32,366 nt of DNA, taken from Bacteroidales bacterium (GTDB lineage Bacteria; Bacteroidota; Bacteroidia; Bacteroidales; P3). A model generated the notes under the pieces. It did not search any database, was not told where the DNA came from, and worked only from the letters and a program-made list of their open reading frames with translations. The position numbers and the translations under genes were made by a program. The stretch lies in assembly GCA_017940465.1 (NCBI GenBank), contig JAGAYN010000003.1, positions 1 through 32,366 of the forward strand, in the 5' to 3' direction. Below, in pieces: positions 2,318 to 6,577 of the stretch (its first letter is position 1; every line of letters starts with the position of its first letter).

Positions 2318-2325
2318 TACTTTTG
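2318..2325 (+). promoter_or_regulatory. Promoter -7 box of the queCDEF operon
   Basis: TACTTTTG matches the Bacteroidota housekeeping -7 element TAnnTTTG and continues as GCA, as at other promoters in this window. The -33 element is poor: TTTC at 2294-2297, spacing 20, lies within the preceding terminator hairpin. A start near 2332 gives a ~55-base leader that contains little besides the pseudoknot at 2348-2382. Confidence 0.65.
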
Positions 2326-2347: not shown

Positions 2348-2382
2348 AGGGGTAGCTTGCACACCCCCTTTAACAAAACAAG
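2348..2382 (+). promoter_or_regulatory. Candidate preQ1 class I riboswitch in the queC leader
   Basis: The leader forms a compact H-type pseudoknot. P1 pairs AGGGG (2348-2352) with CCCCT (2365-2369). The hairpin loop contains CTTG (2356-2359), which pairs perfectly with CAAG (2379-2382) in the tail to form P2. Between P1 and P2 lies the A-rich strand TTAACAAAA (2370-2378). Known preQ1-I aptamers are ~34 nt with a 5-bp P1, a loop ending in ACACC-like sequence and an A-rich tail. The tail here (TTAACAAAACAAG) matches, as I recall it, that of the Thermoanaerobacter tengcongensis aptamer. The tail ends five bases before the queC ATG, so ligand binding would probably mask the translation start. 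The operon makes preQ0 and preQ1, so feedback control is expected. Structure and context are seen; ligand and class are inferred. Confidence 0.78.
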
Positions 2383-2387
2383 ACCAC

Positions 2388-3047
2388 ATGTCAGACAAGG
2401 ACTCTCTCCTCATCTATTCCGGTGGGCTCGACAGCACCACCCTCCTCTACGAGGAGCGGGGGCGTATCGCCCTGGCCCTCACCTTCGGCTACGGCAACAA
2501 CCACGCCGCTCGCGAGCAGGCCTGCGCCCGCTACCACTGCCAGCGCCTTGGCATCGGGCACCTGGTGATCGACCTCGGCTTCATGGGGCGCCACTTCGCC
2601 TCGTCGCTCACCGCCGGCGCCGACGCCATCCCCGACGGCAGCTACGCCGAGGACAACATGCGTTCCACCGTCGTCCCCTTCCGCAACGGCATCATGCTCA
2701 GCGTGGCCTGCGGCCTGGCCGAGAGCAGGGGGCTGAAGCGGGTGCTCATGGCCAACCACGGGGGCGACCACGCCCTCTATCCCGACTGCACGCCGCAGTT
2801 CGTCAGCGCCATGGACGCCGCCATGCAGGCCGGCACCTACGAGGGCGTGCGCCTCTGTGCCCCCTACACCCACCTCTCCAAGGCCGACCTCCTGCGCCGC
2901 GGCGCAGCCCTGGGGATTGACTACGCCCACACCTACTCCTGCTATCGCGGCGGCGAGCACCACTGCGGCCGCTGCGGCACCTGCACCGAGCGTCGCCAGG
3001 CCTTTCGCGAGGCCGGCGTCGCCGACCCGACACAATATGAAATCTGA
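2388..3047 (+). CDS. queC: 7-cyano-7-deazaguanine synthase QueC
   Basis: QueC converts 7-carboxy-7-deazaguanine (CDG) to preQ0 using ATP and ammonia in the cytoplasm. The 219 residues match the family's usual length. The N-terminal PP-loop nucleotide-binding motif SGGLDST is at residues 11-17, VPFRN at 96-100, and the C-terminal zinc site is C185, C193, C196, C199 (SCYRGGEHHCGRCGTC). It starts at ATG 2388, right after the candidate preQ1 riboswitch tail and without a Shine-Dalgarno sequence, as is usual in Bacteroidota. It is the first gene of a four-gene operon with queD (6-base gap), queE and queF, together covering the route from the QueD product to preQ1. GTP cyclohydrolase (folE) is not in the operon and must be supplied elsewhere. 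Confidence 0.96.
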   Translation: MSDKDSLLIYSGGLDSTTLLYEERGRIALALTFGYGNNHAAREQACARYHCQRLGIGHLVIDLGFMGRHFASSLTAGADAIPDGSYAEDNMRSTVVPFRNGIMLSVACGLAESRGLKRVLMANHGGDHALYPDCTPQFVSAMDAAMQAGTYEGVRLCAPYTHLSKADLLRRGAALGIDYAHTYSCYRGGEHHCGRCGTCTERRQAFREAGVADPTQYEI

Positions 3048-3053
3048 CGCGAT

Positions 3054-3389
3054 ATGTACTACGTAAAAAAAACTTTCGAGGTGGCCGGTGCCCACCGCCT
3101 GGAGCTCGACTACCCCAGCAAGTGCACCCAGCTGCACGGCCACAACTGGCTCATCACCATCTACTGCCGCGCCCGCGAGCTGAACGGGAACGGCATGGTG
3201 GTCGACTTCTCCGACATCAAGCGTCGCGTGGCCGATCGGCTGGACCACCAGATAGTCAATGATATCCTGGGCTGCAACCCCACGGCCGAGAACATGGCCC
3301 GCTGGTGCTGCGAGCAGGTGCCTAACTGCTACCGCGTCGACGTGCAGGAGACCACCGGCAACGTGGCTACCTACGAACTCGACGACTGA
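3054..3389 (+). CDS. queD: 6-carboxy-5,6,7,8-tetrahydropterin synthase QueD
   Basis: QueD converts 7,8-dihydroneopterin triphosphate to 6-carboxytetrahydropterin, the first committed step to queuosine. The 111-residue PTPS-fold protein has zinc ligands H14, H28 and H30 (AGAHRL, QLHGHNW), catalytic Cys24 in KCTQLHGH, an Asp-His pair at 64-65 (LDHQIVND) and a pterin-binding Glu at ~99 (VQETTGN). The KCTQLHGH spacing favours QueD over the eukaryote-like PTPS. It sits between queC and queE, and its stop TGA overlaps the queE ATG by one base, indicating translational coupling. It is slightly shorter than E. coli QueD, with a compact loop between the two halves of the fold. Confidence 0.95.
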   Translation: MYYVKKTFEVAGAHRLELDYPSKCTQLHGHNWLITIYCRARELNGNGMVVDFSDIKRRVADRLDHQIVNDILGCNPTAENMARWCCEQVPNCYRVDVQETTGNVATYELDD

Positions 3390-3988
3390 TGCTTGTCAAC
3401 GAGATATTCCTCTCGCTCCAGGGCGAGGGCTACCACAGCGGCACCCCGGCCGTCTTCGTCCGCTTCAGCGGCTGCAACCTGCATTGCCCCTTCTGCGACA
3501 CGCGGCATGCCTCCGGCACCGAGATGACGGAGGAGGAAATAGCGGATGCCGTCAAACGCCTCATTCCTCACGCCTCGTTCCCCATACCCCTGCTGGTGTT
3601 CACCGGTGGCGAGCCCGCCCTGCAGCTCACCCCCTCACTTGTGGCCAGCGCCAAGGCCGCAGGCTTCACCGTCTGCGTCGAGACCAACGGCACCCTGCCC
3701 CTGCCGCCCAATGTCGACTGGGTAACCCTCTCGCCCAAGGGCCTCTGGCTGGGAGCGGAGGCCGAGCCCGTGCTGCGCCGTGCCGACGATCTTAAGGTGC
3801 TCTTCGATGGCGGGCACGACCCCGAGGCCTATGCCCACATCGAGGCCACGCACCGTTTCCTGCAACCCATGGACACCGGCGAGTCCGCCCGCAACGCAGC
3901 CCTCATGCGCCAGGCTGCCGACTACTGCCTCGCCCATCCCCATTGGCGCCTCTCGCTGCAGATACACAAGATAATTGATATCAGGTAA
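3389..3988 (+). CDS. queE: 7-carboxy-7-deazaguanine synthase QueE (radical SAM)
   Basis: QueE uses S-adenosylmethionine, a [4Fe-4S] cluster and Mg2+ to contract 6-carboxytetrahydropterin to 7-carboxy-7-deazaguanine. In these 199 residues the cluster cysteines are C29, C33 and C36 in CNLHCPFC, the canonical CxxxCxxC. LQGEG (10-14) is the QueE N-terminal signature and FTGGEP (71-76) is the SAM-binding GGE motif. ETNGTLPLP and the late LQIHK motif also fit the family. The start ATG overlaps the queD stop by one base; the stop at 3986-3988 is one base before the queF ATG. This tight packing implies one transcript and coupled translation. Confidence 0.95.
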
Positions 3989-3989
3989 T

Positions 3990-4448
3990 ATGGACCGCAC
4001 GCAAGACAACCTGCAATCCCTCGGCCGCAAGGCCGACATCCCCGCCACCTACGCCCCCGAGGTGCTCGAGGCCTTCGTGAACCGGCATCCCGAGCGCGAC
4101 TACTGGGTGCAGTTCAACTGCCCCGAGTTCACCTCGCTCTGCCCCATCACCGGCCAGCCCGACTTCGCCGAGATAAAGATAATGTATATCCCCGACCTCC
4201 GCATGGTGGAGAGCAAGAGCCTCAAGCTCTACCTCTTCTCCTTCCGCAACCACGGCGACTTCCACGAGGACTGTGTCAATGTCATTATGGAGGACCTCAT
4301 CAGGCTGATGGACCCTCGCTACATCGAGGTGCTGGGCCTCTTCGTCCCCCGTGGCGGCATCAGCATCCACCCCTACGCCAACTACGGCCGTCCGGGCACA
4401 CGCTACGAGCAGCTGGCCGCCGACCGCATGGCGCGCCATGCGCTGTAG
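3990..4448 (+). CDS. queF: NADPH-dependent 7-cyano-7-deazaguanine reductase QueF
   Basis: QueF reduces the nitrile of preQ0 to the aminomethyl group of preQ1, the only known biological nitrile reduction of this kind. It is the short, unimodular (B. subtilis-like) form at 152 residues. Cys51 in [13 protein letters not shown] is the thioimide-forming nucleophile and Asp58 the general acid. ESKSLKLY (74-81) is the QueF NADPH-binding motif, and HEDC (92-95) follows. I start at ATG 3990, one base after the queE stop; the longer frame from TTG 3975 would overlap queE and adds nothing conserved. As the last gene of the operon it makes preQ1, the likely ligand of the leader riboswitch, closing a feedback loop. 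Confidence 0.95.
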
Positions 4449-4742: not shown

Positions 4743-6577
4743 TTAGTGGTTTTGGGTGGGGCTGACGGTGGTGCCTGACTTCTTGAATTCGATGTCGGCC
4801 GTGTTTCCGGAGCAGGTCGTGTTAGTGCTGGTATTTCCTGACAGTGTGCCGAATTTGGTGGTTCCGACCCCGTCGCCGGTGATGTCGATGCCATCGCCTG
4901 CGGTTTGGCCGATGGTGCAGCCGCTAACACTGATGTTGCCACCGGAGATGCGGCCGATTAGGCCGCCCAGGTAGGCTGTGAAAGTCTTGTTTCCTGCTGC
5001 GTTGAGCGTGATTGTGGCAAGGCCGTCGCTGTAGGAGCTGTTGCTGATGGTGAGGCGCCGGTTGTTGATGTAGCCGACGAGTCCGCCATAGCAGACAGAG
5101 TAGGTACCGCTGGAGCCGCGTTTGCGGGTGATGCCGTCGGTAAAGGCGTTCTTGACGTGGCAGTTCTCGAGGGTCAGCTGAACGTTGTTCATGTAGCTGC
5201 AGAGGGCGCCGAAGTACATGTTGGCGTTTCTCGCGTTGTTTGCATCGGAGCTGTAGCTCTTGTCTATCTGGATGCCGTCGATGGTGAGGTCTTTCACCGT
5301 GGGTTGCTGGCTCTCGCTGTAGGTGTCGAAGTTGAAGTAGAACAGGCCGACGTAGTGGGTAAGGCTTACATCGGTTTTCGTGTAGTCGATGCGGCGGATG
5401 GTGATGTTCTTGAGGGTGTGGTTGCGGCCGTCGAAGGTGCCCTTGAAGTTCTGGATGGGCTCCACGGCGTCGCCCTCGAAGTTGATGTCGTCGGTGAGCA
5501 CGTAGGTGAGTTCCTCGGCCGGTTTCGTCATGTTCGTGCCGGCGATGGTCATCTGGTCCTTGATGGCCTTGACGATGAGTTCATAGCCCGCGGTCGAGCT
5601 GAAAAAGACCGTGTCATTGCGGGCGGTGAGTTCGGTGGCATGGGTGGGGAGGTCGGTGTTGGTCACGGTGATGGGCACATAGGCTATCTTGTTGCGTTCG
5701 AGCTTGCTGCCGGTCACCTGGCGCTGGCTGAAGGTGATTTCCTTGTGCTGTGTTCCACTCACGGAGGAGCGCACGTGGCCGTGCACGTGGATGGTGAACT
5801 GGTTGTCGTCGCCCACGGGCGGCACGGGGATGAGCACCTCTACGTCGTTGCCGCGGCTCATCTTGTACTCGCGGCCACGGTCGGCGAAGTGCATCGTGAT
5901 GACCGTGTCGCCGCTGCCGAGGTGGGCGTCGGTCTCCTTCAGTGCCTCCTCGGGGCCGAGGGAGAGGTCGAACTCGCGCTCGCCGGCAATGATGTGGTTG
6001 CACTTCACGCAGATGCGCTCCAGGTAGAAGTCGTTGCTCGTGTAGGCACCGCCGAATCCGGAGGCATCGATGTCGTTGGTGATGTGCACCAGCAGGGCGC
6101 CGGTGAGGTGCTTGAAGTTGAGGTTGCCGTTGCTCGAGCGGGCGGCCATGGGCAGGTGGATGTGCTGGTTGCCGCTGTAGATGTCGGTGCCGTCGGTGCG
6201 GTAGGAGTAGCTGCTGGGCAGGTTGATGGTTACGTGGTCGCCGTTGATGGCGTGGACAATCGAGTCGGGGTAGACCGCGTTGTAGTAGCTGGCTTCCGGC
6301 ACCTCCTGGTCGGCATCCACGTAGGCTTTGCCGTCGGCCACGGTGATGGTTACTTTCTCGCCGTTGATGTTGATTTCGTTGCCGTTGTCCCAGGTGGCGA
6401 TTGTGGGGTTCTGGCGGTCCACAATGACCTTCGCGCCGGAGGCCTGGTTGAAGTCTTCGGTGGTGATGTTGAAGCGGGCGTTGACGGGTTCGGGCAGGTC
6501 GGGATTACACGCGACGAGCGCTGCGGAGAAAATCAATGCAGATGCAAAGATTTTGCTGGGGGGGGTAATTTGCTCAT
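4743..6577 (-). CDS. Fimbrillin-like/GLUG-repeat surface lipoprotein, frame broken at an 8-G tract
   Basis: The main frame stops at 4743 and is open upstream to TAA 6588-6590, but holds no ATG. Its only start-like codon, TTG 6536, would begin inside the signal sequence. ATG 6577-6575 lies one frame off across eight Gs (6558-6565). With nine (or six) bases it reads MSKLPPPSKIFASALIFSAA then LVAC: a full lipoprotein signal with lipidated Cys24, giving 611 residues. As assembled, the ATG frame stops after 14 codons. After the lipobox, ~residues 30-310 resemble fimbrillin/Mfa-type domains. Residues ~375-610 carry a GLUG-like beta-helix: FKGTFDGRNHTLKNITI, then YGGLVGYI and LGGLIGRI repeats. It is likely a surface adhesin or matrix protein, phase-variable or miscounted at the tract. 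Confidence 0.8.
6558..6565 (+). repeat. Homopolymer run of eight G (C8 in the coding strand)
   Basis: It lies four codons after the ATG of the fimbrillin-like lipoprotein. Runs of 8 or more G/C in a start region are classic slipped-strand contingency tracts. With eight bases the gene is OFF; nine or six would put it in frame. Confidence 0.75.

Follow-up and report, generated by a model that had tools for sequence, protein, structure and literature searches.

A predicted class I, type II preQ1 riboswitch variant abutting the start codons of queuosine genes in Bacteroidales

The available portions of a 2024 review of preQ1 riboswitches (PMC11625349) define type II of class I by the dinucleotide AC preceding the 3' strand of helix P1, and assign ligand-contact roles to a U, a C and an A residue in class I aptamers. 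Modes of action based on the Shine-Dalgarno (SD) sequence and one indirect mode are described. Bacteroidota are listed among the hosts of class I, type I elements, with a similar distribution for type II; thus, the kind of element reported here is known. Riboswitches in mRNAs lacking an SD sequence are named in the same portions as a future challenge, and translational riboswitches are predicted in organisms that do not use SD sequences. Bacteroidetes are reported to lack natural SD sequences, translation being tuned by structure and by adenines near the start codon (PMC6847099, portions available).

Passages of PMC3766115 describe preQ1 switches as largely confined to Firmicutes and count a total of two RNA regulogs for Bacteroidaceae. 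PMC7366714 reports three putative TPP switches in B. thetaiotaomicron, and the word preQ1 is absent from its main text. It cites a preprint whose title has Bacteroides TPP switches regulating transcription or translation, so there is some precedent for translational switching in a host of this kind. The available portions of PMC11089507 and PMC6593275 contain nothing on a Bacteroidales preQ1 family. A literature search, which covered few subscription papers, retrieved no paper on the Bacteroidales family or on an SD-free mechanism for it. The alignments of McCown 2014 may include some of the Bacteroidales sequences, among the 521 type II members cited by the 2024 review.

The queC leader and its locus

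The window, i.e., the whole 32,366-nucleotide stretch of DNA analysed, derives from a gut Bacteroidales bacterium and carries queC, queD, queE and queF in a single tight row (2388-4448, + strand). The queC gene (2388..3047; TIGR00364, 161.5 bits, cut-off 150.3) is followed by queD (3054..3389; TIGR03367, 86.7 bits, slightly below the cut-off of 89.25), queE (3389..3988; TIGR04508, queE_Cx14CxxC, 173.8 bits, below the cut-off of 240) and queF, encoding preQ1 synthase (3990..4448; TIGR03139, 174.4 bits, cut-off 86.9). The tgt gene scores over cut-off in the same genome, and a TIGR00697 search of this genome did not find yhhQ. The large ORFs flanking the row (253-1605, 1627-2262 and, on the - strand, 4743-6536) have no Pfam match at E<=0.01.

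Upstream of queC, a terminator-like hairpin with a 13-pair stem (2281-2310, + strand), extended to 2317 by a T-rich tail, marks the end of the upstream unit. Two terminator-like sites were found on both strands of 2200-2700, compared with a mean of 0.3 in shuffles. The tail is directly followed by TACTTTTG (2318..2325, + strand), which fits TAnnTTTG, a motif that we take to be the Bacteroidota -7 box consensus. The succession of terminator, box and pseudoknot is as the first-pass annotation had placed it.

The pseudoknot spans 35 bases (2348-2382, + strand), is of the H type and ends 5 nt upstream of the queC ATG. The P1 5' strand AGGGG (2348..2352) pairs with CCCCU (2365..2369), and the P2 5' strand CUUG (2356..2359) with the tail CAAG (2379..2382). 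Loop L1 is UAG (2353..2355), in which U2353 occupies the position of the conserved ligand-contact uridine. Loop L2 is CACAC (2360..2364) and ends in A2363 and C2364, the latter being the predicted specificity base. The A-rich loop L3, UUAACAAAA (2370..2378), ends in A2378, at the conserved position of the contact adenine. The spacer ACCAC (2383..2387) separates the knot from the start codon. A topology scan (5-bp P1, 4-bp P2, A-rich L3) over both strands of the window matched this place only. The coordinates, loops and 5-nt spacing initially annotated are correct.

In six shuffles of the window, the topology by itself was matched 0, 0, 0, 2, 1 and 0 times; once U, AC and A were demanded at the contact positions as well, there was no match. 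The bare topology in 32 kb is thus not far above chance, and the weight is carried by position and conservation. Folded alone, the leader has no unusual stability (z -0.28), as computed by a program that does not model pseudoknots.

Detection and conservation across Bacteroidales

The first annotation had proposed the Rfam model RF00522 as a check, which the element does not pass. Its score is 15.4 bits (E 1.1 in 301 nt), where gathering requires 39. Four further places in this genome come close to it, at 13 to 15.3 bits, and nothing in the window reaches the gathering score. Across 16 related loci, RF00522 yielded two matches at E<=10, the best at 24.7 bits. When 395 genomes were surveyed across the phylum, 20 of them had E<=0.05 and one was over cut-off; this sole match over cut-off lies at 1501-1545 of locus L116. 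Rfam was dropped as sole arbiter, as it gave nothing at gathering in the window. The Rfam PreQ1 model misses the Bacteroidales members scanned, and surveys relying on its cut-off will undercount them.

Two models were built from the family itself. R1 was derived from 19 related queC leaders, the window not being a seed, and R2 from nine shorter elements found in the order search described below. MAFFT misaligned P1 where L1 lengths differ (alignment A1) and the tail where L3 lengths differ (A4); the models were therefore built from the single-length subsets A3 and A5. A4 was kept for the P1 count, as its columns agree there. For P2, counts come solely from A6, a model-fitted alignment that includes the R2 seeds and leans towards the P1 of its model. 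R1 scores the window element at 49.4 bits (E 2.1e-9), and this is its sole match at E<=1 in the genome of the window. Rfam does not establish the element; it is the comparison among relatives that settles it as an RNA family.

The pattern CAGGGGU(n)CUUG(nn)AACCCCCUUUAACAAAACAAG occurs directly upstream of queC in 29 of 80 queC loci from genome contigs, and 51 lack it. The 29 loci comprise 27 of the 30 nearest (L036-L065), together with L067 and L080. In whole genomes of the genus, the element precedes queC in 42 of 55 scored leaders, 39 by pattern and three (L146, L149 and L157) by reading; six of 61 queC loci have no SGGxDS anchor and were left unscored. Of the 13 leaders lacking the element, six begin queC on the stop codon of the upstream gene. 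In L009, L010, L016, L022, L023 and L033, queC starts on the stop codon of an upstream gene ending in VEYYLK and there is no aptamer; in L040, L048 and L052, the aptamer directly follows the same VEYYLK-ending gene.

We counted 50 genus elements, 40 of which are distinct, after excluding L001, a copy of the window. All 50 are followed by an ATG after 2-7 nt, and a looser pattern omitting the ATG retrieved the same 50. The 40 distinct leaders feature one P1 mismatch and variable L1 and L2 loops. P2, the specificity C and the tail are identical in all 40, an invariance that is partly built in, since the search patterns required CUUG, CCCCCU and CAAAACAAG. Among leaders printed as lacking the element, just three near-variants were noticed, all of which keep P2, the specificity C and the tail.

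The element is not restricted to queC. R1 matched 83 of 120 genus genomes at E<1e-3, and many matches stand a few nucleotides before a gene encoding a Vut_1/YhhQ transporter (TIGR00697; PF02592 for L179) rather than queC. YhhQ is implicated in preQ0/preQ1 import (PMC11625349, in the portions available). Of the 120 genomes, 32 have yhhQ. In 29 of these, R1 finds a match on the strand of yhhQ, 38-78 nt upstream of the domain, six of the 29 having E values between 1e-3 and 0.16. In the yhhQ loci that were opened, the element ends a few nucleotides upstream of the yhhQ start codon. Three of the 32 yhhQ genes (G143, G569 and G145) have no upstream R1 match, and one of these three (L297) shows no motif before the start codon. 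Nineteen of the 32 yhhQ genomes were also searched for queC: 17 have no match over cut-off, and two have one. As R1 was trained on queC leaders alone and 17 of the 19 genomes have no queC match, linkage to yhhQ amounts to an independent confirmation.

In 12 of 14 genus genomes compared, queF follows the yhhQ domain by 127-291 nt on the same strand. For instance, yhhQ and queF are about 10 nt apart in L179 (1539-2681), forming a two-gene salvage operon behind the same switch. In genome G126, queC and yhhQ occur together, and each carries a separate copy of the element (L187 and L292). In the 27 genomes searched for them, queA is over cut-off in all and queF in 24. As the element precedes either queCDEF or yhhQ-queF, one switch would stand ahead of two routes to preQ1, i.e., synthesis, or import followed by reduction by QueF.

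Part of the genus carries insertions in L2, with the core around them unchanged. Eleven distinct sequences were found. Two are 23 nt long and are predicted to form one hairpin; the other nine span 32-56 nt, and two adjacent hairpins are predicted in most of them. The loci concerned are L008, L014, L017, L019, L064, L067, L080, L145, L157, L294 and L295, and the insertions lie beside the predicted ligand pocket. The first hairpin varies in sequence and keeps its pairing, as in AUUGC/GCAGU, CCUGC/GCAGG and GCUAC/GUAGC. Fold energies are not extreme relative to mononucleotide shuffles (z -3.8 to -0.5). To judge from the predicted folds, the insertion is likely an added domain.

Beyond the genus, an R1 search of 393 genomes of the order gave matches at E<=0.1 in 62 genomes. 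A selection of these loci was read, and among many weak matches were shorter elements with P1 helices reading AGUG/CACU, CGUG/CACG or AGAG/CUCU. At E<=0.05, R2 matched 48 of 295 genomes of the order, in 32 of 184 genera. Of the 56 places matched, 51 precede yhhQ or queC. The other five are weak (L272, L275, L276, L277 and L278; E 0.006-0.048), are not followed by a queC or yhhQ start, and were excluded from A6. G843 (yhhQ) and G862 and G682 (long form before queC) are also outside A6, making eight of the 56 places in all. The alignment was extended by nine loci of the genus and by L209 and L212, which came from the order search with R1. A6 thus aligns 59 diverged matches, 49 before yhhQ and 10 before queC. 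In 55 of them, the element ends 2-6 nt before the start codon (49 yhhQ, 6 queC). In L234, L237, L262 and L265, a distance of 72 to about 170 nt separates the aptamer from queC, the upper value being estimated from a protein motif; these elements must use another expression platform or have lost regulation. Across the phylum, R2 matched four of 247 genomes. The element is present in only one of them, G386, which was part of the order set; the three other matches look like chance by inspection.

Helix P1 covaries across Bacteroidales. In 15 sequences, it is 100% paired, with 16 cells changed on both sides, and its covariation score exceeds that of 500 of 500 shuffles, in a kind of test that related sequences inflate. 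Two of five P1 measures, changed pairs and pair types, are not above shuffles, 466 and 320 of 500 being as high. In the 56 distinct diverged sequences, 98.9% of cells are paired, and 18 of the 19 both-sided changes fall in P1. P2 is paired in 97-100% of cells and has a single both-sided change, from CUUG/CAAG to AUUG/CAAU (L267); four diverged sequences (L269, L273, L274 and L279) have no CUUG. Of the covariation that the first reading proposed to look for in both helices, that of P1 was borne out, with pairing kept through both-sided changes, and that of P2 hardly at all. P2 accordingly rests on conservation, with almost no covariation.

The contact positions are nearly invariant in the diverged set: U in 56/56 sequences, C in 55/56 (one gap), and A before the P2 3' strand in 56/56. 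All three bases are also found in 40/40 distinct genus leaders, where the patterns required them. The A of the AC dinucleotide before the P1 3' strand, the signature of type II, is likewise present in 55/56 diverged sequences, with one gap. The window reads AC and UA, not the UC and the UU atop the P1 5' strand of type I, and UA and CAAGA, not the UU motif and the P2-paired AAGG SD of type III. The H-type pseudoknot with P1 and P2 is that of class I, and linkage to queuosine genes holds for the queCDEF row of the window, for 59/59 aligned elements and for 51/56 order-search places. Family-wide conservation, P1 covariation, the contact bases and queC/yhhQ linkage all agree with the class I preQ1 identity originally suggested, preQ1 being the predicted ligand. 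By these comparative features, the element is identified as a genuine class I, type II preQ1 riboswitch in a form particular to Bacteroidales, which the Rfam cut-off leaves undetected.

A candidate SD-free translational mechanism

Among 69 distinct AGGGG-type leaders, TAnnTTTG occurs within 60 nt upstream of P1 in 50, compared with 407 of 18311 background 60-mers. In 46 of these 50, the box stands 11-22 nt before P1; the leader is therefore little more than the aptamer, in line with the earlier remark that almost no other leader sequence is left. In L034, L040, L045 and L048, the element lies about 10 nt after the stop codon of the upstream gene and has no promoter box, an arrangement that suits a translational device. 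In the window, no terminator-like site was found downstream of the element on the + strand up to 2700.

The assembly of the window has no 16S match, and hence the anti-SD sequence is not readable there. Upstream of 92 long ORFs from the window and L036-L065, which were picked mechanically and may include false ones, SD core motifs show no enrichment (7.6%, vs 9.8% in a control stretch and 9.2% in shuffled sequence). Taken together, the distance of 2-7 nt to the ATG, the lack of a downstream terminator-like site up to 2700 and the lack of SD enrichment suggest that the pseudoknot, once locked by its ligand, blocks initiation directly. The near-constant short distance and the two negative results favour the SD-free translational reading with which the annotation began.

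Judging from the leaders, the element is probably a translational OFF switch, in which the preQ1-locked pseudoknot would itself occupy the queC initiation region and block it without SD masking. We infer preQ1 as the ligand, the OFF direction, the steric mechanism and polarity on queDEF. The class I, type II aptamer would form most of the short queCDEF 5' leader. Accumulated preQ1, the product of the operon, would pair with C2364 between the stacked P1 and P2 helices and lock the H-type pseudoknot. The 30S subunit must occupy the stretch just upstream of the AUG; the locked knot, reaching to 5 nt before the AUG, would fall within this footprint, and queC initiation would be blocked with no SD masked. 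The closely spaced queDEF genes would be translated less along with queC. Without preQ1, the CAAG tail and the A-rich L3 would be single-stranded, an upstream region of the kind favoured by Bacteroidota ribosomes, and translation would proceed.

The aptamer could instead act by burying a weak SD sequence, CAAG(A/G), within P2, as in T. tengcongensis. This is unlikely. In its favour, the tail reads CAAGG, a partial SD, in seven of the 40 distinct genus leaders, and partial SD occlusion is given for T. tengcongensis (PMC11625349, available portions). Against it, the other 33 leaders read CAAGA, SD motifs are not enriched at these loci, the distance from the element to the AUG is short for an SD, and Bacteroidetes are reported as having no natural SD sequences (PMC6847099, likewise). 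Control of transcription, by termination or ligand-sensitive pausing, is quite unlikely. The type II aptamer of B. subtilis terminates transcription and also pauses the polymerase (same portions of PMC11625349), and four of the 59 relatives have long spacers with room for another platform. However, the + strand of the window shows no terminator-like site between the element and 2700, and nearly all relatives examined end their aptamer 2-7 nt before the start codon, which leaves no room for a terminator.

As to the ligand, preQ0 or another deazapurine such as queuine in place of preQ1 seems very unlikely. YhhQ is implicated in the import of preQ0 as well as preQ1, and type II aptamers also bind preQ0, 17-fold more weakly in T. 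tengcongensis (PMC11625349, in part). Both gene modules nevertheless lead to preQ1, with queF following yhhQ in 12 of 14 genus genomes, and the contact bases are those of preQ1 aptamers. That the conserved stretch is a protein-binding site or a chance repeat, and no aptamer, is barely credible. Sequence conservation inside the genus is very high and the bare topology arose in two of six shuffles, but P1 pairing is kept while its sequence differs between families, the element is linked to queuosine genes, and L2 insertions are tolerated. The preQ1-responsive translational OFF switch is thus the reading we retain.

Relation to known preQ1 riboswitches

What appears to be new is the SD-free layout abutting the start codon, the exchange of queCDEF for yhhQ-queF and the L2 hairpin insertions. 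On balance, we favour a Bacteroidales-wide group of SD-free class I riboswitches, in which the pseudoknot would be a roadblock held near the AUG by selection and kept through exchange between queCDEF and yhhQ-queF (preQ0 salvage), with a one- or two-hairpin L2 domain in part of the genus. The family is a natural test set for riboswitches in SD-less mRNAs, with leaders so short that the aptamer makes up most of the 5' UTR, and it makes directly testable whether a pseudoknot alone can block the Bacteroidota ribosome.

The class I, type II translational riboswitch of T. tengcongensis shares the H-type pseudoknot, the AC before the P1 3' strand, the A-rich L3 and an aptamer at the ribosome site. 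The tail of the window element is presumably nearly identical to that of the T. tengcongensis aptamer. In the window, all four P2 pairs can be of the Watson-Crick type, no SD is evident, and the knot lies right against the AUG. In T. tengcongensis, two bases of the SD are buried and only two of the four steps in P2 are canonical (PMC11625349, available portions).

The transcriptional type II riboswitch of B. subtilis belongs to the same aptamer class, and type II elements of that mode regulate queCDEF genes (PMC11625349, available portions). It differs in using a downstream terminator; in the window, nothing terminator-like was found after the element on the + strand up to 2700. For the type I riboswitch of Carnobacterium antarcticum, the reported effect comes from the pseudoknot, by indirect occlusion, and not from burial of the SD (same portions of PMC11625349), as would be the case here. 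In contrast to the window, which reads AC and UA, type I carries UC ahead of the P1 3' strand together with a UU motif, and has two ligands. The type III riboswitch of E. coli regulates yhhQ (PMC11625349, likewise), as would, by position, the relatives found here before that gene. The UU motif and the paired AAGG SD of type III are both absent from the window.
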